Assembly: GCA_020631045.1 (NCBI GenBank)
Contig: JAHDHZ010000016.1
Location: 1 to 47,750, forward strand
From: Flavobacteriales bacterium
GTDB taxonomy: Bacteria > Bacteroidota > Bacteroidia > Flavobacteriales_G > JALEGO01
Direction: 5' to 3'
DNA length: 47,750 nt
Made by a program: the position numbers and the translations under genes. The notes below the pieces were generated by a model. The model was not told the DNA's origin and ran no database searches. It saw only the letters and a program-made list of their open reading frames with translations. Positions 560-36,426 of this stretch are shown here, piece after piece. Position 1 is the first letter of the stretch. Each line of letters begins with the position of its first letter.

Positions 560-1902
560 TTTTTCAAAGCGGCTTTTTCTTCTTTTTTATAAAAATCTGG
601 CGGAAAACTGTTGATCTGTCGCCACAACTCATACCAAATAGATACGTTGTTTAATAAAATCATACCATTGGTCGCGCTTCCTACCCTAAGGGCTTGTGGC
701 CAGTGGTATTCAGAAGTGTCAGGCGCAATTAAAATTCGGTATTTGCCATTCTCACTGATGAAATTGTCAACAGCAAATATTTTACCTCCAAACGTGCCAT
801 AACTCACATTGGGCCATCCTGAAAATACAATCGCAGGCCATCCATCAAACTGCAAACGCACCTCTTGTTCTTTGTTCATCAATGGCAAATCAATGGGGCG
901 CACATACGTCTCAACGGCCAGATCAAAGTTTTTAGGCATAATGGTTAAAATAGATTGCCCTTCTTTTAATGTTTCTCCAATACCCGATGAAATAGTTTTA
1001 GTCACATACCCATCTTGCGGAGCCAAAATATAATACATGCTGTTTCTTGCACTGTAATTTGCCAGATTGTTCTCTAATTTACGCACCTCAGCCTGAGCAT
1101 TGAATCGTGATGATTCATTGCTGAATTTATCGGCAGAAGCCTTGGCAATTTTATTGTCGTATTCTGCTTTTATGGCTGATAAATCTACTTGGGCATTCAA
1201 CAACTTATTTTTTGAAGCCAAAAATTTATTTTGTTTCTCATTTAATGAAGCTTTCGCTTTTTGGAGTTTTAACTTTTTATCTTCAAAATCAGTTTTTGAC
1301 TTTAAGCCAGCTTGATATAATTTATCTATTCGATCAAATTGAGCTTTTGCGATATCTATATTTGTTTGAGATGCTTCTAACTCTATACTGTCTATTTTAA
1401 TCTGAAGATTTGCCTGAATAATTTTATTTTCAGCCGCCTGAACTTTTAATTTTTTGTTGTTTACAAGCGCGCTAATTTGGGAGGATAGCGCTTGGGTTTT
1501 TTGCCCATAAAAATCTACTGAAGCTGATTTAGCATTTACCTGATCTTGAGTGTTAGTCACTAAATTTGGATCTAAATACTCAGATTTAATCTCTGAAATT
1601 CTAAGCAAAGTGTCTCCTTTTTGAACATAATCGCCCTCTCTGATGTACCATTTTTGAATCTGTCCTGAGATGGCGGCCTGTAATTTTTGTGGTTTTTGCT
1701 CAGGTCTGAGTGTAGTTACTGTACCTGTGGTTCTTACATTTTGAGTCCAAGGTAAGAACAAACACAAGACCATGATAATGGTAAACCAAATCAAAAACCG
1801 CTTTAAGCGCTTAGCAGACTTTAATTGTGATGTATAGTTTAGGGTTCTATACTTTTTTTGATCGATGTAATCGTCAATTTTATTTTTTGAAATATTTAAC
1901 AT
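556..1902 (-). CDS. HlyD-family periplasmic adaptor (membrane fusion protein)
   Basis: This 448-residue protein should link the inner-membrane ABC transporter to the TolC duct. One membrane segment lies at about residues 35-52, after a basic cytoplasmic tail. A first half-lipoyl motif follows (AISGQIQKWYIREGDYVQKGD), then a long alpha-helical coiled-coil region at roughly 120-285 rich in Lys, Ala and Gln. The second half-lipoyl motif (ILAPQDGYVTKTISSGIGE) and a beta-barrel-like C-terminus complete it. The order is typical of HlyD/EmrA adaptors. Its ATG overlaps the stop of the ABC gene (TAATG) and its stop overlaps the TolC start (ATGA), indicating translational coupling. The substrate cannot be read from the sequence. 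Confidence 0.9.
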   Translation of the reverse strand: MLNISKNKIDDYIDQKKYRTLNYTSQLKSAKRLKRFLIWFTIIMVLCLFLPWTQNVRTTGTVTTLRPEQKPQKLQAAISGQIQKWYIREGDYVQKGDTLLRISEIKSEYLDPNLVTNTQDQVNAKSASVDFYGQKTQALSSQISALVNNKKLKVQAAENKIIQANLQIKIDSIELEASQTNIDIAKAQFDRIDKLYQAGLKSKTDFEDKKLKLQKAKASLNEKQNKFLASKNKLLNAQVDLSAIKAEYDNKIAKASADKFSNESSRFNAQAEVRKLENNLANYSARNSMYYILAPQDGYVTKTISSGIGETLKEGQSILTIMPKNFDLAVETYVRPIDLPLMNKEQEVRLQFDGWPAIVFSGWPNVSYGTFGGKIFAVDNFISENGKYRILIAPDTSEYHWPQALRVGSATNGMILLNNVSIWYELWRQINSFPPDFYKKEEKAALKK

Positions 1903-4360: not shown

Positions 4361-5212
4361 ATGTTTAATCAGTATCTTCCTGAGTTTATTCAGCAACTCA
4401 TTTTAAGTTTCATAATTGTATGTCTCACATTTATCTTAGCCTCTTGGGTGAAAAGAGCTTTTGATCGAATATTTACTCAAATCAAAAAGAGTGATAGTGA
4501 TTATACTAACTATGCCTTCTTGCGCTATTTCATCATAGCAGGAGTATACATTGTAGGGTTTGGTTTAGCCATTTATATGATTCCTAAACTAAGAAGTATT
4601 GGTGGTACTCTTTTAGCTGGGGCAGGAGTGTTTGCACTTGCCATTAGTTTTGCCTCTCAGCAAGCCTTGAGCAATATTGTGAGTGGTTTGTTTATTGTTA
4701 TTTTCAAACCCTTTAGAATAGGAGATCGCCTTCAGTTGCAAGATCAATCTTTGAGCGGGAAAGTAGAAGATATTACCTTGAGACACACTGTAATTCGAGA
4801 TTTTGAACAAAGAAGAATCATTGTTCCAAATACAGTGATTAGCGATCAAATTATCATCAACTCAGATTATTCAGACGATTACATTTGCAAGCACATAGAT
4901 GTATCTATAAGCTATGAGAGTGATCTTAAAGGGGCAAAAGCCATTATGGCCAGTTTGTGTGCTGCCCATGATCTAAGCATTAAAAGCAAAGAGGATCCCA
5001 CCTCAAATGTGCACGCTGATGATGTTTTAGTGCGCCTTGTCTCACTTGCAGAATCTTCGGTAAATCTCAGAGCTTGGGTGTGGGCGAAAAACTTTGATGA
5101 AGCATTTATATTGAGTTGTGATTTATTAGAGCAGATTAAAGAGCAGTTTGATCAAAAGGGGATAGAAATCCCTTATCCTCACAGAACTGTGATTCAAAAA
5201 AACAACATGTGA
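4361..5212 (+). CDS. MscS-family mechanosensitive ion channel
   Basis: A 283-residue small-conductance mechanosensitive channel of the inner membrane, expected to release solutes on hypo-osmotic shock. The N-terminal half has membrane segments at about 12-32, 50-70 and 82-105. The pore helix is Gly/Ala-rich (GGTLLAGAGVFALAISFASQ) and is followed by the conserved ALSNIVSGLFIVIFKPFRIG and a soluble beta domain (VEDITLRHTVIRDFEQRRII.PN). The length fits the compact MscS type. It is divergent from the TetR operon and overlaps the next gene by one base (TGATG), so mscS and the ThiF-like gene are co-transcribed. No functional link between the two is evident. Confidence 0.93.
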   Translation: MFNQYLPEFIQQLILSFIIVCLTFILASWVKRAFDRIFTQIKKSDSDYTNYAFLRYFIIAGVYIVGFGLAIYMIPKLRSIGGTLLAGAGVFALAISFASQQALSNIVSGLFIVIFKPFRIGDRLQLQDQSLSGKVEDITLRHTVIRDFEQRRIIVPNTVISDQIIINSDYSDDYICKHIDVSISYESDLKGAKAIMASLCAAHDLSIKSKEDPTSNVHADDVLVRLVSLAESSVNLRAWVWAKNFDEAFILSCDLLEQIKEQFDQKGIEIPYPHRTVIQKNNM

Positions 5213-27048: not shown

Positions 27049-28452
27049 TTACTTGCCAGAAGAGAAAATAAAATCGTAAGTAATAAACAACATAATGGCA
27101 TAATACCTGCTTTTTACGTTGTTTTTCACTGTAAAATCAAACAAATTATCAGCTGTAATGTTTCTTGAAAGATCAACCAATTGACGCCCTCCTCCGCTCG
27201 AGCTATAGGCAAAATCAAGCCCTATGGCAAATTCATTTTTATTAGCCTGAAAACTACCTCCCGTTGAAAAGTGAAACACATCGCCTACCGAACCTAAATA
27301 TTCAGTTTTTTGGTTTACTGAAATGATATTGTCTTGATTAAAATCTGTTCTAAAACCTGTAAACCAAGTCAGTCTGTCAGAGACCTTATGTTGAATACCC
27401 ATCGCTAAATTAAACACCGCCTTGTTTTTACTAGTTACGATTGTGGGAACATTAGAAGGCGTAGCGGTTAATCCATCAAAACTATCGTCAACATCTTCAA
27501 AGACTGTGTAGTTCTTAATCTTAAAAAAATATTCACAAGCCATAGATACTTTTGTGTCATGCACATTAAAATCTACTCCTAAACCTATTGAACTAGGAGA
27601 TTTATACTGCACTTGATCGACACTCCTTCTATTTGAGATTGAAAGTGAAATCGCTGAAGAAGTGTCTATTCGATGATCTTCAATATTATATCCACCACGT
27701 GTTCTGTATGCTGCATATTGAGGTGAAGTGTAGGTAAGGCCCAGCCCGAAGTTTTTACCAGTGTAGCTAAATCCAAACTTTGTGATAAAAGCACTCTGAA
27801 TATCAATGTTGTATGCAAATTCATTGCGCCAAGAAGCAATCAAATTAGTAGGTAGATCTCTATCTGTAATTTCTTTTTTGAAATTAAAGTTTAAATCTTC
27901 TCCATGCCATACAGAATACTGAGAAAATCCTACAGCAATTTTTTCATTGATCTTAAAGGCACTACCAACAGCCAACCACTCCTCAAAAACCTGTCTTCTG
28001 AAATTAATGTCTGCCCTAAAAAGCTCTAAATCTGGAGTGGTCAAGTCAACTACACGATCTCTAAATTTAATGTCTGTTCTATATCTTCTAAAAGTCGCTA
28101 ATCCAACAATAAAACGATCTGTTTTTAAGGGCTTGAAACGCACTCCAGCAAAACCAGGAGCATAAAATAATCCATCGTCTTGAATGGTGTTGTTGTCTCC
28201 TAAGAAATTGTCTGTTCTAAGATTTGCATAAGTAGGGCTTAAATAAGAAAACGTAAAACCCAAATTGTTGTCTTGAGCCATCGCGCCAGGATTATAAAAA
28301 ATTGAGGTTTCACCAGCAGGAGAGGCAATCACAGCTCCATTCAATAAAAGCCCTTTAGCCCCATATTGATAAGACCAGTAATGAGCATCTTGTTGTGCAA
28401 ACACACTAACAACAAACAAACATTGAAGAGCTATATATATTCCCTTTTTCAT
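27049..28452 (-). CDS. OmpP1/FadL-type outer membrane porin
   Basis: The protein has 467 residues. A signal peptide (KKGIYIALQCLFVVSVFAQ) is followed by the FadL N-terminal plug-like segment (GAVIASPAGETSIFYNPGAM, AQDNNLGFTFSYLSP). The rest is a run of amphipathic strands typical of a 14-stranded barrel (FGLGLTYTSPQYAAY, FNLAMGIQHKVSDRLTWFTG), ending in YAIMLFITYDFIF. FadL proteins let hydrophobic compounds, such as long-chain fatty acids, cross the outer membrane. The Bacteroidota subgroup is broad, so the ligand is unknown. It appears monocistronic. Confidence 0.85.
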   Translation of the reverse strand: MKKGIYIALQCLFVVSVFAQQDAHYWSYQYGAKGLLLNGAVIASPAGETSIFYNPGAMAQDNNLGFTFSYLSPTYANLRTDNFLGDNNTIQDDGLFYAPGFAGVRFKPLKTDRFIVGLATFRRYRTDIKFRDRVVDLTTPDLELFRADINFRRQVFEEWLAVGSAFKINEKIAVGFSQYSVWHGEDLNFNFKKEITDRDLPTNLIASWRNEFAYNIDIQSAFITKFGFSYTGKNFGLGLTYTSPQYAAYRTRGGYNIEDHRIDTSSAISLSISNRRSVDQVQYKSPSSIGLGVDFNVHDTKVSMACEYFFKIKNYTVFEDVDDSFDGLTATPSNVPTIVTSKNKAVFNLAMGIQHKVSDRLTWFTGFRTDFNQDNIISVNQKTEYLGSVGDVFHFSTGGSFQANKNEFAIGLDFAYSSSGGGRQLVDLSRNITADNLFDFTVKNNVKSRYYAIMLFITYDFIFSSGK

Positions 28453-28532
28453 AAAAACAGTAGAGAAATATACAATTATTTATAGTTTTTGGGGTATAAA
28501 AACAAATGCATGTTTTAACTATAAGCAGTTTC

Positions 28533-29021
28533 TTAATCTAAAATCTCATCATCACTCACTCTTTGAATTAAGCTGTCAATTTCTTTAATGACTTCTCTGC
28601 GCTTTTGTTTTGCTTTTACGATAATTTCTTCAGGGTTTGAAGTGTTGGCAATTTGAATATTGTAAAAATTAATAAGCGTATTTAAGGCGTTTAAACGGGC
28701 TGTGATTTTCATTTGTTCTACTTGCTCTGTCAATGCTTTTTCTGATTTCACTTGTGCTTTAGCAGATTTTTTAAGCTCGGTTCTGTTTAGCTCTATTTCT
28801 TTTCTTTGTAGCAATAAATCTTCTTTTTGAAGTATTATGGTATAAAGCAGTCCAGCAAAGGCAAGGCCTGAAAATAAAGCATTTACAGCACCAAACAAGT
28901 CTCCAAATGCACCTCGATCTGACCAATTATTTATAAAAAAATAAATGAATAAAAACGAGAGCATCCAAACAACTACAACAGCAATAGCTAGAGCCAAAAA
29001 TCGACCTGGTTTTCGAATCAT
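28533..29021 (-). CDS. Small membrane protein with coiled coil
   Basis: A 162-residue protein with two membrane helices (about 8-30: FLALAIAVVVVWMLSFLFIYFF; about 43-63: GAVNALFSGLAFAGLLYTII, each read as the core of the segment). A charged helix follows that should form a coiled coil (QKEDLLLQRKEIELNRTELK, KSEKALTEQVEQMKIT). Proteins of this architecture are scattered in many genomes, often in accessory regions. The function is unknown. It lies just downstream of the MscS remnant. Confidence 0.7.
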   Translation of the reverse strand: MIRKPGRFLALAIAVVVVWMLSFLFIYFFINNWSDRGAFGDLFGAVNALFSGLAFAGLLYTIILQKEDLLLQRKEIELNRTELKKSAKAQVKSEKALTEQVEQMKITARLNALNTLINFYNIQIANTSNPEEIIVKAKQKRREVIKEIDSLIQRVSDDEILD

Positions 29022-29026
29022 AGAGA

Positions 29027-29281
29027 TTAAAGTTTTAATGGGCTTTTAATGTGTATATCAGTTTGGGGGAATGCTACCACTACATTGTGTGCTCTAAATA
29101 ATTCATCAATTTTAAAACACAACTCACTTTTCACATCACCCACTCTGAATAATTCTTTTGTCCAAAAATAAACTTCAAAATCTAAAAAAGAAGAACCAAA
29201 ATCATTAAATCTTACAAAAGGAGATGGGTTTTTCAATACAGCTTCATTTAAATTTGTTGCTTTTAAAAGAAGTTTTTCATA
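29027..29281 (-). pseudogene. Headless C-terminal fragment of an MscS-family channel
   Basis: Read from TAT at 29279-29281, the frame gives about 84 residues: YEKLLLKATNLNEAVLKNPS, PFVRFNDFGSSFLDFEVYFW, then TKELFRVGDVKSELCFKIDE and a tail ending DIHIKSPLKL. This is the C-terminal beta/alpha domain of a MscS-type channel, with the conserved PSPFVRFNDFG and PQTDIHIK. The membrane part and any start are missing. The fragment begins directly after the stop codon of the deacylase gene and is in its frame, which marks a recombination joint. It differs from the intact mscS at 4361. Confidence 0.75.
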
Positions 29282-30241
29282 TCACGCAATTATTCCTAAA
29301 TGCAGAATTCTTCCGCCTGTTTGATTTACAGGGTTAACGCTTTTTCCGATTACAATACCATCTTGTGGTGCAAAATATTCTTGAATTAAGCCTCCAAACA
29401 AATCTCGCTGTTGTGCAATTAAGTCTCCTTTTTTTATGAACTGAGTAATAGAAGGAAGTACAGTGAGTAAGCCTCCAGTGCTTGTGTAAATCCAATACGA
29501 TTTTTTACAAACTACAGCTGGTGTTTCAGGTTCATCGATTTCTCCTTGCACCATTTTTAAGTACACTAAGGCATTGTATAGACCAGTTAAGCCAGAGCGA
29601 ATCATGCCTTTTTGAAAAGTGTGAGGGTTTCCTACTTCAAGAGTAATGGCAGGAATATTTTTTTCATTAGCCGCCCCTCTAAGTGTTCCATCAGAGGCAG
29701 TTTTATGTACCACTATTTGGCCATTTTGAAGCAAGGCTAATTTTTTTGTAATGGTATCAGAAAGATCAGCTCTTATATAATAAGAGTTTATTCTACCTGT
29801 AGATGCAGTATGTAAATCAATGAGATAATCTACATCTTTAACTACTTTATTAAAGAAATTATATACATATGCTTCACTTACATTTCCATTTTCAATGCCA
29901 GGAAAAATATGATTTAAATCAACATTGTCAATAAACCGTCTTTTTTTTCGATGAAAAGCAGGAATATTTACCACAGGAACGCCAATAATGTTTCCATGTA
30001 ATTCAGTAAAATTGACCTCATCAAACAACCTTTGAATCACAGGAATTCCGTTGAGCTCATTGCCATGAACTGCTGCGGTAATACCCACTGTTTTTCCATC
30101 AAAAGCCCCTTTTGCAACTATTACAGGGATAGATAAAGGTGTTGCGGTAGGCCCATCAACAATTTTTAACCAAAACTTGTGCACCCCAGGCTCTAGAAGA
30201 TCGATTTGTAGATGTTCAATTTTAGGAATTTCCATATTCAT
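29282..30241 (-). CDS. Succinylglutamate desuccinylase/aspartoacylase (M14-type) family deacylase
   Basis: The protein has 319 residues. The zinc-binding His and Glu are in AAVHGNELNGIPVIQ, the third ligand in YLIDLHTASTGRI, and the likely catalytic Glu in ITLEVGNPHTFQKG. This is the pattern of the AstE/AspA family, which hydrolyses N-acyl amino acids or related amides. A C-terminal beta domain follows (KKSYWIYTSTGGLLTVLPSI; LHLGIIA). It is the last gene of the ATP-grasp cluster and overlaps the GshB-like gene by 20 bp. Together they could form and trim an amide bond. Start choice is either of two Met codons two residues apart. Confidence 0.88.
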   Translation of the reverse strand: MNMEIPKIEHLQIDLLEPGVHKFWLKIVDGPTATPLSIPVIVAKGAFDGKTVGITAAVHGNELNGIPVIQRLFDEVNFTELHGNIIGVPVVNIPAFHRKKRRFIDNVDLNHIFPGIENGNVSEAYVYNFFNKVVKDVDYLIDLHTASTGRINSYYIRADLSDTITKKLALLQNGQIVVHKTASDGTLRGAANEKNIPAITLEVGNPHTFQKGMIRSGLTGLYNALVYLKMVQGEIDEPETPAVVCKKSYWIYTSTGGLLTVLPSITQFIKKGDLIAQQRDLFGGLIQEYFAPQDGIVIGKSVNPVNQTGGRILHLGIIA

Positions 30242-31217
30242 CTTCTAAGAATTTAATAAGTTCATTTGAATACTGTTTAAATACATTTTTTTGCCCAAAA
30301 CTATATAATGGCTGTAGACCACCAATGCTTAAAGTATTAATTTCTGAAATCATTCTTTTGCCAACAGAATTGGTCAGTAAATCAATGCCATACATAAAGA
30401 CTTTGTGCTTTTTAAAAATGGGGTTTAAATATTCTACAATTGCTCGATCTCGTTTATCTAAACTGCTAATTTCAGAGATACCCCCTTGAGCTGCGTTACA
30501 CATCCATCCACCATCTTTTGGTTTTCTAATTAAAGCGCCTAAGGGTTTACCATTTACTACAACAATGCGTTTGTCTCCCTCTTCAATTAAAGGCATATAC
30601 TTCATTGCCAAGTATGGCTGTTTATTCAGCTCATACCATTCTTGAAAATCATCAAGACTCATCTGTTTTTGATGACCAAAATATGCAATGCCTTTTTGAA
30701 GCTTGATAATGCCTTTTCCGCCATAATTTTTTAAAGGCTTCAACACAATGGCAAACCGTGCATAAAAAGCCTCAATATCTTGCCAATTTAAACAAAGTTT
30801 TACTGGAGGTACATACTGATCTAATTGCATTAAAAAAGACTTATCACTTAAAGCTTCTATTGATTCAATATTGTTGATGACAGCACAGTTTTTAAAACGC
30901 CCTTTAATGCTTTTAAAGAAATTGGGGTGTACCGGTCTTGGCAATCTAAACAAAATAGTATTGATAGCCATGGGGAGGTGCTTTTTAGCATTCAATATTT
31001 TGCTTTTAAATGTTTTAACATCAATTTTTTCATCAACTTCTAAAATATACATTGAAGCTGAACGCTCTCCGTTAAAAAAAGCATCATTTCTTTTGTCAGA
31101 TCTACTGCACACAAAAACTTTATCAATTTTTCTGTGCTTCACTAATGCATTGGTAATTCCGTAAAACGAATTACTAGAATTGTGCTTTTTATGATCTGTT
31201 AAAACAAGTACATTCAT
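30222..31217 (-). CDS. GshB-like ATP-grasp ligase
   Basis: A 331-residue protein resembling bacterial glutathione synthetase. The ATP-grasp glycine-rich loop is VLKPLKNYGGKGIIKLQ. The substrate-side elements are EGDKRIVVVNGKPLGALIRK, CNAAQGGISE and, near the end, MISEINTLSIGGLQPLY with the Mg-binding Glu-x-Asn. Enzymes of this fold join a carboxylate to an amine through an acyl phosphate. The N-terminal domain (MNVLVLTDHKKHNSSNSFYG) is GshB-like but not identical. Overlaps with both neighbours (ATGA with VOC; 20 bp with the deacylase) imply one translated unit. Whether it makes glutathione or a dedicated peptide is open. Confidence 0.85.
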   Translation of the reverse strand: MNVLVLTDHKKHNSSNSFYGITNALVKHRKIDKVFVCSRSDKRNDAFFNGERSASMYILEVDEKIDVKTFKSKILNAKKHLPMAINTILFRLPRPVHPNFFKSIKGRFKNCAVINNIESIEALSDKSFLMQLDQYVPPVKLCLNWQDIEAFYARFAIVLKPLKNYGGKGIIKLQKGIAYFGHQKQMSLDDFQEWYELNKQPYLAMKYMPLIEEGDKRIVVVNGKPLGALIRKPKDGGWMCNAAQGGISEISSLDKRDRAIVEYLNPIFKKHKVFMYGIDLLTNSVGKRMISEINTLSIGGLQPLYSFGQKNVFKQYSNELIKFLEDEYGNS

Positions 31218-31639
31218 TGTTTTTCAATAGGAGTAAAAATGTGCCTTTTATCTTTAAAGGCTTTAAATTCAATCATGTTTTCACTAGGATCTTTCACAAA
31301 CATGGAGTATTGCTCATAGTTTGACCCTTCAAAAAAAGTAGTTGAAAGGTTTAAAATTTCTACTTTTTTTTCAGTTAAATAGCGTTTCATTGAATGCCAT
31401 GCTTGTTCTGATAAAATAATGCCAAAATGGTGTGGTGGAACAGCTAGTTCATGCAAGCGTTTATTGTTTCTCGGTTTTGTTTTTTGTTCATCTAGCTGAA
31501 CGGTAAGTTGATGATTATAAAAATTTACATCAAACCATTTTGTCGTTTGCCTACCAATATCAAGGCCAAGAATATTTTTATAAAACTGCTTGGCCTTATC
31601 AATATCATTTACTGTAATTGCCAGATGAAAAACATTCAT
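31214..31639 (-). CDS. VOC/glyoxalase-fold protein
   Basis: A 141-residue protein from the ATG at 31639; a longer frame from 31672 would overlap the previous gene. It starts FHLAITVNDIDKAKQFYKNI, the typical first beta-alpha unit of the vicinal-oxygen-chelate fold. Likely metal ligands are His5, a His in PPHHFGIILSEQ and Glu in SENMIEFKAF. Family members include glyoxalases, dioxygenases and antibiotic-resistance proteins. It sits 4 bp after the small secreted protein gene and overlaps the GshB-like gene (ATGA). It could act on the cluster's product. Confidence 0.82.
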   Translation of the reverse strand: MNVFHLAITVNDIDKAKQFYKNILGLDIGRQTTKWFDVNFYNHQLTVQLDEQKTKPRNNKRLHELAVPPHHFGIILSEQAWHSMKRYLTEKKVEILNLSTTFFEGSNYEQYSMFVKDPSENMIEFKAFKDKRHIFTPIEKQ

Positions 31640-31643
31640 GTTT

Positions 31644-31976
31644 CTAGTTTTCATCATCTTCTTCAATTTCAAATTCTTCTTCTTCAGCTGGCTTTAAAGT
31701 TTTGAGTATATATATATCATCACCATCAAGATCTTCTTGGATTTTATAAGTAAGCTCAAAAACCACACCTTCTGAAGTGCTTGTATTTAACTCGTATTGT
31801 TTGATCAGGGCTTCAGGAACTTCTTCAAAAAAGTATGAGATTCCTCCTTCAGTTTCAAATTCGTAATTGTGTTGAAAAAAGCCATTATAAACCGCTACAA
31901 TGCGTTGGGAAAAAGCTGCGTTACTATTTAGTAAAAATGCTAAAATAGATCCTTTAAAAAAGTTTATTTTATTCAT
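31644..31976 (-). CDS. Small secreted acidic protein, 110 residues
   Basis: No known family is recognised. A signal peptide (MNKINFFKGSILAFLLNSNAAFSQ, cut after FSQ by analogy) leads to a small beta-rich domain (RIVAVYNGFFQHNYEFETEG, VVFELTYKIQEDLDGDDIYI) and a very acidic tail (EEEEFEIEEDDEN). It is inside the ATP-grasp cluster, 25 bp after the large ATP-grasp gene. It may be an exported partner, substrate or binding protein of the system; the acidic tail could be a modification site, but that is speculation. Confidence 0.7.
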   Translation of the reverse strand: MNKINFFKGSILAFLLNSNAAFSQRIVAVYNGFFQHNYEFETEGGISYFFEEVPEALIKQYELNTSTSEGVVFELTYKIQEDLDGDDIYILKTLKPAEEEEFEIEEDDEN

Positions 31977-32001: not shown

Positions 32002-33447
32002 TTATTCTTTAATTAGTTCGCTTTGTATTTCATTTATTAGTATTTGATCATTGTTTAATGATTTAAAAAGCTTTGTTTTAAGTCCGCCTTTTTGAGATTT
32101 CAAGTTAATTGCTAATTTATCAATTGCAATGGTTGATAGCACTACCTGAATGAAGCCTTCAATTAAATCATCTATGCTTATACCTAATTGATTAAACCCT
32201 CTTCTTTCCATAACTAATAATCTTGATGTGTCGCTTGACCAAGACAAGTCTTTGTTTTTGATAGAGAGATTTGTGCCCAGTATTTCCCAAGAAGATTGCC
32301 CTTCTTTTAAGTGCCCAGTTAAGGGTTTTAAAGCTCTTCTAGAATACAAAGAAAGTGGTCTTAGGCCTTCTTTTGTTGCATGCACCATAATTCTAAAGTC
32401 TAACACATATGAAAACCCTTTTTTATTGGGCATAGAACCCACATGGTAAAACACGCCTTCACTTGAGGTAGAGCTCCAATTATAATTTCCAATCAAGCTC
32501 TGTACAATAAATTTTTCGTAGTGAAACTCTTGGTTCATGAAATCTTTAAGCTCTTTTTCGCTGGTAATGGTAAAAACCCCTTGCCCTGCATTGCTGTAAG
32601 GAATTTTTATAACGCCTTTTCCTCCCAGTTTTTGAATCCACAACGGAATTTCTTCTTTGTTAACATCCCAAATGGTTTGTGGGGTTAAAATCTTCAGGTT
32701 TTTTTCGGCAAGCTCCGCATTGTAAAAAGAGTATGCTTTTGAGGCTACAAGTTTATTTCTTCCTCCGGCTAAACAAGTAATAACGGGGTTAATGATTGTA
32801 GTTTTAGAAGCAATAGGAAGTCTATTCCATGGCTTTTGCGTTAAGTATCTAAAAACAAAATCTAGTTGAATCCATTTTTTTGAATCAAAAAATTCTAAAT
32901 AGCCTGATTTTGATAGACGAATATGACTTTTATCTTCATGATTATAAAATGCAATTAAGTGCACTTGTTTTTTTGTTGCTTCAGCTAAGGCATGCGCATA
33001 GCCAGAGGCTTCCATATAATTTTTATCATATATTACGGCCAAAGTCCCGTTTTTGACTTTATTTTTATACAATCCTAAAATTGTTTGATCAACAAACCTT
33101 TTATACCCCCCCATTTCTTCATATTCATCAATTAAAGGCATTGATTTTTGCCCTGAAGGACAAGAGTTATTCTCAATAACAATCATTTTTTTATTGCCTT
33201 CTTTTGTGGTTACATGAAGTAAATCTGCTCCAGAAAGCAGATAATGCTTAGGCTTGTAACTCAATATTTGGCCAAGCTCTTGAGGCGATACTTTAGGATT
33301 TAAATGACAGTAGCGCTCAACAATTTGTTTGTTAGACAGGCCAAAGAAAAATTTAATGGCTGGATGAATGGTCGCATTAATTGCTTTTTCATACCAATGA
33401 TTTTCTGGCACAAAGTTTTCTGGTTGAATTTGAAGTGTTTTTTGCAT
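32002..33447 (-). CDS. Large ATP-grasp ligase-like protein, 481 residues
   Basis: The preferred start is the ATG at 33447, 7 bp after the SET gene stop; an upstream ATG at 33516 would overlap it. The N-terminal half contains ADLLHVTTKEGNKKMIVIEN and NSCPSGQKSMPLIDEYEEMG. The ATP-grasp core follows: KLGGKGVIKIPYSNAGQGVF (glycine-rich loop), YEKFIVQSLIGNYNWSSTSS and YVLDFRIMVHATKEGLRPLS. This order fits an ATP-dependent carboxylate-amine ligase. I do not recognise the exact subfamily. It is the biggest enzyme of the cluster, and with the GshB-like protein it gives two ligases in one operon. Confidence 0.78.
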   Translation of the reverse strand: MQKTLQIQPENFVPENHWYEKAINATIHPAIKFFFGLSNKQIVERYCHLNPKVSPQELGQILSYKPKHYLLSGADLLHVTTKEGNKKMIVIENNSCPSGQKSMPLIDEYEEMGGYKRFVDQTILGLYKNKVKNGTLAVIYDKNYMEASGYAHALAEATKKQVHLIAFYNHEDKSHIRLSKSGYLEFFDSKKWIQLDFVFRYLTQKPWNRLPIASKTTIINPVITCLAGGRNKLVASKAYSFYNAELAEKNLKILTPQTIWDVNKEEIPLWIQKLGGKGVIKIPYSNAGQGVFTITSEKELKDFMNQEFHYEKFIVQSLIGNYNWSSTSSEGVFYHVGSMPNKKGFSYVLDFRIMVHATKEGLRPLSLYSRRALKPLTGHLKEGQSSWEILGTNLSIKNKDLSWSSDTSRLLVMERRGFNQLGISIDDLIEGFIQVVLSTIAIDKLAINLKSQKGGLKTKLFKSLNNDQILINEIQSELIKE

Positions 33448-33454
33448 AATTCTA

Positions 33455-34018
33455 CTAAGAGTTAGATGGATTTTCAAAAATGATTGAGTCAAAAAAATCC
33501 CATAAAGGCTGGGCAATTAATTCTTTTAGTGGTTGATGTACAGATCTGATTTGGTGCACAGCACTTAACAGTTTTTTATTCCAATATGAAGCCATTATTT
33601 CGGGTTGATTTAATTTATAGGCGTAAATTCCTACTTCTTTTAAATCTTCTGCTTCGATGTTGGTAGAAAAGTCTTTTTCAAAACCATTGCAATAACTTAC
33701 CACAGACCCGGGATAAATATCTTTCGTAGCAACTTCAAATCCCAAACCGGTAAAAGAAATGTTTGCTTGTTTGTTATAAGCAATGTATTTGCGATGATCC
33801 CAGGCTAAAACGTATGTGCCAAAAGCATTTTTAAAACAATGTTTATCTTTTACTTTTGTAAGCTTTGGGTGTACAAACAATAAATCAAGTTCTGTAAACA
33901 AGCGATCAAAATCATCTTTAACCCAAGTGATTGTACCCATAGGCACAAAATCTTTAGCTACAACAAAGTACGTGTTGTTGGTTGCATTAAACTGAGACGA
34001 AAAATCTGGATGTACCAT
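33455..34018 (-). CDS. SET-domain protein with altered core motif
   Basis: A 187-residue protein with the layout of a compact SET domain: YFVVAKDFVPMGTITWVKDD at the start, then FGTYVLAWDHRKYIA and GFEVATKDIYPGSVVSYCNGF. In SET methyltransferases the motif NHSCxPN binds S-adenosylmethionine. Here residues 80-86 read AYNKQAN, so only the last Asn is kept. The final Tyr region is also different. It may have lost methylation or use another chemistry. It is coupled by shared bases to the gene before it and is followed by the ATP-grasp gene. Confidence 0.72.
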   Translation of the reverse strand: MVHPDFSSQFNATNNTYFVVAKDFVPMGTITWVKDDFDRLFTELDLLFVHPKLTKVKDKHCFKNAFGTYVLAWDHRKYIAYNKQANISFTGLGFEVATKDIYPGSVVSYCNGFEKDFSTNIEAEDLKEVGIYAYKLNQPEIMASYWNKKLLSAVHQIRSVHQPLKELIAQPLWDFFDSIIFENPSNS

Positions 34019-34753: not shown

Positions 34754-35590
34754 TCAGAAGTAGACTTCAAATATGTGCTTTTTGTCTATAAAAGCATATT
34801 TAAATGTGAAATCTAAGTGGTGTATGATTTTATTGACTATTGATAATCCTAAACCGATAGAGTGGCTCGAAGAAGATTTACTTTCAAATCGTTGGAAAAT
34901 AGAAGAGGGTAATATCTTTTGATGATTACTGTTGTTTGATATTTTAATTTTCTCTTTTGATAGCTCAATAAGAATAGCCCCATTTTTAATATTATGAAAT
35001 ACTGCATTTTTAATCAAATTCATAATTAAAATCTCGAGCAAATCTCCATTTGTTTTGAGAATTGTTTTTTCAAAAAGGAGTTTTCTAACTGTAATGTTTT
35101 TTTCTCTAATTTGAAATTCAAATAAATTTAAAACCTCATCAACAATCGAATTTATATTCACTTTTGAAATTTCATCATATACATCCCCATCAATTTTAGA
35201 AAGTAAAATAAGAGATTTATTCACTTTAGTAAGTTTTTGAACGTGCTGCATAATGCTTCCTACGATCTCAAAATCTTTTTCTTGAAGACTTTTTGACTGA
35301 AGTAAAAGTTCAATTTTCCCTGTAATTACTGAAATTGGAGTCAATAATTCATGACTAAAATTTTCAACATAACTTTGCTTTGACAACACCTGCTCAACCT
35401 TTTTATTAATGATTGTATAGGTTTGTTCAATGTGATTTCTAAGTGTGCTTTTGGCATTAAGCTGTTTTTTAAACTTATTAGAAGGATATTGGTCAATAAA
35501 AATTAAAAATCGTTGCCTAAATAATCTTACGTAAACACAAAGAGCACATGCTCCAAAAAGAACTCCAAGAAGAAAAATTAATATTCCCAT
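34754..35590 (-). CDS. Short membrane histidine kinase
   Basis: About 278 residues from the ATG at 35590; a GTG at 35602, overlapping the regulator stop by 8 bp, is an alternative. One N-terminal membrane helix (MGILIFLLGVLFGACALCVY) is followed directly by a helical linker. The H-box is VENFSHELLTPISVITGKIE. The N-box (LIMNLIKNAVFHN) and GLGLSIVNKIIHHL complete the ATPase domain. No periplasmic sensor domain is present, as in kinases that sense through another membrane protein or in the membrane itself. It pairs with the regulator encoded just upstream. Confidence 0.9.
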   Translation of the reverse strand: MGILIFLLGVLFGACALCVYVRLFRQRFLIFIDQYPSNKFKKQLNAKSTLRNHIEQTYTIINKKVEQVLSKQSYVENFSHELLTPISVITGKIELLLQSKSLQEKDFEIVGSIMQHVQKLTKVNKSLILLSKIDGDVYDEISKVNINSIVDEVLNLFEFQIREKNITVRKLLFEKTILKTNGDLLEILIMNLIKNAVFHNIKNGAILIELSKEKIKISNNSNHQKILPSSIFQRFESKSSSSHSIGLGLSIVNKIIHHLDFTFKYAFIDKKHIFEVYF

Positions 35591-35594
35591 TAAG

Positions 35595-36287
35595 CTATTC
35601 ACCTACCTCTTTTACTAGAAATTTATACCCAATGCCATACACTGTTTTTATATAGTCTTTACACCCTAGTGCTAACATTTTTTTTCTCAAATTTTTAAGC
35701 TGAGCATAGACGTGGTCAAAGGAAACTGAATAATCCATGTAATCTCCCCAAATATGCTGAGAAAGGGTTTGTTTTGTAACTACTTTATTTCTATTATTTA
35801 TAAGAAACAACAAAAGCTCGAACTCTTTTTTTGTAAGTGTCATCTCAGTATTTTGAATCAAAACATTTTGAGCGGCAATATCTATTTTAATTTCATTTAA
35901 CTTAATTGTATTTTTATTGTTAAATGTTTTTCTTCTGACAATTGATCGTATTCTTGCATTTAACTCTGCTAAATGAAAGGGTTTGGTTAAGTAATCATCA
36001 GCACCCAAATCAAGGCCATCAATTTTATCGTCTATTGAGCTGTTTGCAGATAGAATAATTACTCCACACTTCTCTTGCTTTTTATGGATTGTTTCTAAAA
36101 GCGCTAAACCACTTCCTCCTGGTAAATTAATATCAAGCAAAATACAATCAAAACTTGAGTCATTTATTTTTTCTAAAGCGCCTTTAAATGTTTTAGCTGT
36201 TTCACTAACATATCCAATTGGATCAAAATATGTTACCATATTTCGAATAAGCTCAACATCATCTTCAACTATTAAGAGTTTAATCAT
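35595..36287 (-). CDS. OmpR/PhoB-family response regulator
   Basis: A 230-residue regulator. The receiver domain has the acidic pair in LLIVEDDVELIRNM, the phosphorylated Asp52 in CILLDINLPGGSGLA, and the Lys in DDYLTKPFHLAELNARI. The winged-helix effector follows (MTLTKKEFELLLFLINNRNK, then HVYAQLKNLRKKMLA and KTVYGIGYKFLV). It is encoded immediately before its kinase. The ATTCTGTAGA repeats between the kinase and the ATP-grasp operon are its likely target. The gene starts 70 bp from tRNA-Gln. Confidence 0.93.
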   Translation of the reverse strand: MIKLLIVEDDVELIRNMVTYFDPIGYVSETAKTFKGALEKINDSSFDCILLDINLPGGSGLALLETIHKKQEKCGVIILSANSSIDDKIDGLDLGADDYLTKPFHLAELNARIRSIVRRKTFNNKNTIKLNEIKIDIAAQNVLIQNTEMTLTKKEFELLLFLINNRNKVVTKQTLSQHIWGDYMDYSVSFDHVYAQLKNLRKKMLALGCKDYIKTVYGIGYKFLVKEVGE

Positions 36288-36341: not shown

Positions 36342-36356
36342 ATAAAAATTTGTTGT

Positions 36357-36426
36357 TGCCCGGCAAGGATTCGAACCCTGACCAAAGGTACCAAAAACCC
36401 ATGTGCTACCATTACACCACCAGGCA
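36357..36426 (-). tRNA. tRNA-Gln (anticodon TTG)
   Basis: A cloverleaf can be drawn by eye: acceptor TGCCTGG with CCGGGCA, a D-arm GGTGTAATGGTAGCACA, anticodon loop TTTTGGT between GGT and ACC (anticodon TTG), and a T-arm CAGGG-TTCGAAT-CCTTG. The encoded 3' end has no CCA. The outer anticodon-stem pair is mismatched, yet the overall form is normal. It stands at the border of the two-component/ATP-grasp cluster. Confidence 0.9.

Follow-up and report, generated by a model that had tools for sequence, protein, structure and literature searches.

One known form of bacterial pseudogene is a copy truncated at its 5' side, from which the start is missing and in which the conserved residues decay. 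A remnant of this kind, derived from an mscS channel gene, very probably lies directly behind a deacylase gene in the stretch of DNA analysed here (the window, 47,750 nucleotides, which is contig C31 of the genome G000, an assembly of 2.34 Mb in 86 contigs, 98.6% complete). Truncation pseudogenes of bacteria have been the subject of surveys (PMC522871, PMC9336565). Among the titles and openings of abstracts searched, no arrangement combining ATP-grasp and deacylase genes with a mechanosensitive channel was found.

The remnant occupies positions 29030..29281 of the minus strand and was assigned from a profile match, an alignment with the channel of the congener G001 and a tree. Its 84 stop-free codons retain the natural C-terminus of the channel and end with a TAA (29027-29029, minus strand). 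They are in the frame of the deacylase, and the first of them, TAT, comes directly after the deacylase TGA (29282-29284). The open reading frame and the profile thus confirm what a sequence-only reading had described, namely 84 C-terminal residues of an MscS channel beginning at the codon after the TGA, in the same frame, with neither a start nor a membrane part. That reading had not stated the strand, and the end it proposed, 29290, includes the TGA and the last two codons of the deacylase. ATG is absent from all 84 codons, the earliest codon of the ATG/GTG/TTG type being a TTG at 29236. Residues 3-67 match the Pfam family PF21082 (MS_channel_3rd) over positions 21-86 of the 88 in the profile (E=4.2e-11), and the score of 43.5 bits (cut-off 21) identifies them as the C-terminal domain. 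No other channel domain is carried: the membrane helices and the middle beta domain (PF00924) are missing, so that the piece does not amount to a functional channel, and the four matches of the PF00924 profile in G000 all lie away from this locus. With 84 residues against the 276 of the intact orthologue in G001, it is truncated in the manner of a pseudogene. The chance that a random sequence of the same base composition would hold an open frame of 84 codons is about 0.0008.

The fragment finds a match at E<=0.001 in 45 of the 60 genomes searched, G000 being counted among the 60. Outside its own genome the best match is the intact 276-residue channel of G001 (57-58% identity), and trees place the remnant as its sister, with a support of 0.93 for the C-terminal block and 0.96 for the full alignment. 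Four complete MscS-family genes are present in G000, each 25-30% identical to the G001 channel; the 5' part that the remnant lacks was found neither in the window nor anywhere in the G000 genome. In G001 the mscS gene stands at another locus, downstream of a gene for a 295-aa protein and a rhodanese-like gene. The same two genes are adjacent on contig C56 of G000, where they are followed by ParA/ParB-like genes; the channel is absent, and the 97 bp behind the pair have no match to the G001 mscS. Gene order has been reshuffled elsewhere too, since the G001 homologue of a DUF937 gene in the window adjoins an apparent asparaginyl-tRNA synthetase (neighbouring genes in both genomes were named by reading the sequence). 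G001 is the single congener compared and the DNA downstream of the deacylase differs outside the genus; the comparison of gene order is therefore unpolarised.

The deacylase, of the AstE/AspA type (29282..30241, minus strand, 319 aa, complete), is the last gene of a conserved block running in the order response regulator, histidine kinase, two small ORFs, 504-aa-type protein, VOC protein, ATP-grasp ligase, deacylase. Like the deacylase, the ATP-grasp ligase of the glutathione-synthetase type (30222..31217, minus strand) and the VOC (glyoxalase-fold) protein (31214..31672, minus strand) were assigned by profile and by the G001 gene order. The 504-aa protein (32002..33516, minus strand) is a conserved neighbour of the deacylase at many related loci and matches no Pfam or NCBIfam family above the cut-off; it would be ATP-grasp-like solely through the name that the sequence-only reading had given to the cluster. 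The histidine kinase and response regulator (34754..36287, minus strand), named by reading the sequence, form the upstream end. G001 retains this order in full, its conserved part also stops at the deacylase, and the neighbours of the block differ between the two genomes on both sides. Judged by this gene order, the remnant marks the downstream border of the conserved block, as the sequence-only reading had proposed. Behind the G001 deacylase there is an inverted repeat with a T run, an apparent terminator as read from the sequence, and then a tRNA-Met gene. A tRNA gene adjoins the block in both species, at opposite ends: a called tRNA-Gln(ttg) just beyond the upstream end in the window (36355..36426, minus strand) and tRNA-Met downstream in G001 (L058, 9452-9526). 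On the other side of the remnant, a 162-aa ORF with N-terminal membrane helices, as seen by inspection (28533..29021, minus strand), starts 5 bp after the channel TAA. It is unmatched in G001, has matches in 4 of the 60 genomes (its own included) and shares 66% identity with a G013 protein. A defence role was considered for it and set aside, the profile matches being weak (REase_II, E=0.00095, 16.1 bits; PrgH below the cut-off).

The joint between the two genes (29276..29290, minus strand) was located from the similarity to G001 on both sides and from the uniqueness of its sequence. Similarity to the G001 deacylase stops just before the TGA and similarity to the channel begins one or two codons after it; the first residue of the remnant is Y, in a column that is V in 27 of 28 relatives. 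The 36 bases at 29265-29300 occur a single time in the genome, even with up to 3 mismatches allowed. For comparison, deacylase C-termini were drawn from 91 loci (L005-L009, L025, L092-L163, L168-L180) and restricted to the 69 distinct ones with a GGRI-HLG motif, in 68 of which the stop is visible. Three residues between motif and stop is the commonest length (27 of the 68, the window's own counted), and it is the length found in the window; TGA serves as the stop in 11 of the 68. On this comparison with the family, the TGA sits where the normal stop is expected. A third of all joints would keep the frame by chance, and the length of the deacylase is the usual one; the in-frame joint therefore carries no functional weight and is most likely due to chance. 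A search of 28400-30300 for terminator-like sites gave none, but with an average of 0.8 in shuffled sequences this says little.

The state of decay was judged against 28 intact relatives, that is, ORFs of at least 200 aa at loci L001-L004 and L029-L057 with a fragment match at E<=1e-3, a level that the four MscS paralogues of G000 do not reach, so that they are absent from the set. Twenty-five columns of the remnant are near-invariant, meaning at least 85% conserved in these relatives. Six are changed in the remnant and 19 survive, against one change in the G001 copy; the substitutions include an R to C (R in 28/28 relatives) and an R to T (R in 27/28). Half of the relatives (14/28) show no departure at such columns, and one, L057, departs at 6 with its frame intact. 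Private changes number 19 in the remnant and 3 in the G001 copy when the nearest outgroup (G003, L030) is used (chi2 11.6); five other outgroups give 11:7, 12:9, 16:4, 12:7 and 11:8. This points to the relaxed constraint of a pseudogene, with chi2 above 3.84 for only two of the six outgroups and the same direction for all six. Three genes of the cluster are balanced in their private changes (window against G001, 7:11, 22:18 and 2:4). Between the remnant and G001, differences per codon are 0.40, 0.19 and 0.55 at positions 1, 2 and 3, much like those of the intact histidine kinase pair (0.34, 0.19 and 0.54). Second positions are still the least changed, as in the intact kinase, so the greater part of the divergence accumulated under selection; given the likeness to an intact, fast-evolving gene pair, the gene was probably truncated late. 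When random substitutions were simulated in a simple way, the probability that the frame remained open was 0.60, 0.39 and 0.17 after 10, 20 and 40 of them; an open frame therefore does not prove that it is used.

These data are best explained, and with considerable confidence, if the fragment is an mscS pseudogene remnant left by a one-sided deletion or rearrangement at its joint with the deacylase. The starting point would have been a native mscS gene of this species' lineage. An illegitimate deletion, or another one-sided rearrangement, would have removed the 5' two thirds of this gene and brought its interior up against the end of the deacylase gene, which would have been left complete, with its normal end at the TGA; the leftover piece, unable to form a channel, would since have drifted. 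The joint presumably arose by deletion and not by inversion or translocation, and fairly recently, because the frame is still open; the remnant is presumably untranslated. The homology, the absent 5' part, the sister channel in G001, the different flank there and the loss of conserved residues all support this explanation. Against it can be set the open frame without a frameshift, the codon pattern like that of an intact gene, the 19 of 25 columns kept and the equal loss in L057. The sequence-only reading had proposed that an insertion or deletion set the cluster against a broken channel gene: the broken gene and a one-sided deletion or rearrangement are supported, and an insertion into mscS is not, the 5' part being missing.

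A special case of this explanation, overlapping with it, has the channel as the true last gene of an ATP-grasp/deacylase operon, with a function shared with the cluster, for example the release of solutes, until an internal deletion cut the intergenic DNA together with the 5' part of the channel. The loci surveyed for a downstream channel make this unlikely, although they also provide its attraction. From 107 loci (L006-L027, L092-L163, L168-L180; L164, where the deacylase was unmatched, and the window's own locus being excluded), those below 43% deacylase identity and exact duplicates were removed; 86 remained, and 75 of these extend for 1000 bp or more beyond the deacylase. In two of the 75 an intact MscS-type gene follows the deacylase on the same strand, 30 bp after its stop in L007 (genome G017, 599-1453, minus strand) and 18 bp after it in L125 (10966-11859, plus strand). 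These channels, however, belong to another subfamily and group with a gene at 4361-5212 of the window, not with the remnant, and the other 73 loci, G001 included, have no channel directly behind the deacylase. An artefact of a fragmented, probably metagenome-derived assembly is improbable: the assembly has 86 contigs and the joint is known from this one assembly of the species, but the joint sequence is unique, so that a wrong join cannot be put down to any repeat kept in the assembly; no other contig region holds an intact copy of the channel, and the remnant shows independent signs of decay.

Insertion of the cluster as a unit into mscS is more doubtful still. In its favour, neither flank of the block is shared with G001, and each genome has a tRNA gene near one end of it; but such an event should have left the 5' two thirds of mscS at the far end of the block or elsewhere, and these were found nowhere in the window or genome, so that the block is not flanked by two halves of a channel gene. 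No integrase or transposase was noticed by eye among the listed ORFs, and in the comparison with relatives, suggested earlier as a check, the intact mscS of G001 is at another locus and not at the site of the block. Equally remote is a functional fragment, made by read-through of the TGA as a deacylase-MscS fusion or as a small protein initiated inside the frame, for instance at the TTG at 29236: the frame is open, free of frameshifts and continuous with the deacylase, with no terminator-like site found in between, but read-through explains nothing in a deacylase that already ends at the commonest length of its family, near-invariant residues are lost, and neither a fusion nor a stand-alone fragment, the two cases that could have overturned the sequence-only reading, was seen among the surveyed loci.

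As one more gene remnant, the fragment has little weight alone; it does fix the downstream border of the block, and it drew attention to the intact channel genes behind the deacylase in the genomes of L007 and L125, which hint weakly at what the cluster does. Two such cases compare with a chance expectation of 0.07 in 75 loci, a rough estimate from about 4 channel genes in about 2100 and one strand of two; three further loci among the 75 have an MscS-like ORF 3.6-6.6 kb from the deacylase. The adjacency hints at a link without demonstrating one. One speculative model, to which we give little credence, assumes that MscS channels are recurrent partners of ATP-grasp/deacylase clusters, that two subfamilies were recruited independently to the place behind the deacylase and that this species lost its own; the cluster would then make a solute of a peptide-like or acyl-amino nature, let out upon osmotic downshift.

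Compared with the MscS family, the remnant is homologous to the C-terminal domain PF21082 over 65 residues at the E value given above, and its C-terminus aligns with that of the intact G001 channel; it differs from a channel in having neither the membrane part nor PF00924, and in the replacement of two near-universal arginines. It resembles the bacterial truncation pseudogenes, as generally known, in its 5' truncation, its missing start and the decay of its conserved residues, and differs from them in its open frame and in a joint placed exactly behind the stop of its neighbour, which we take to be chance.
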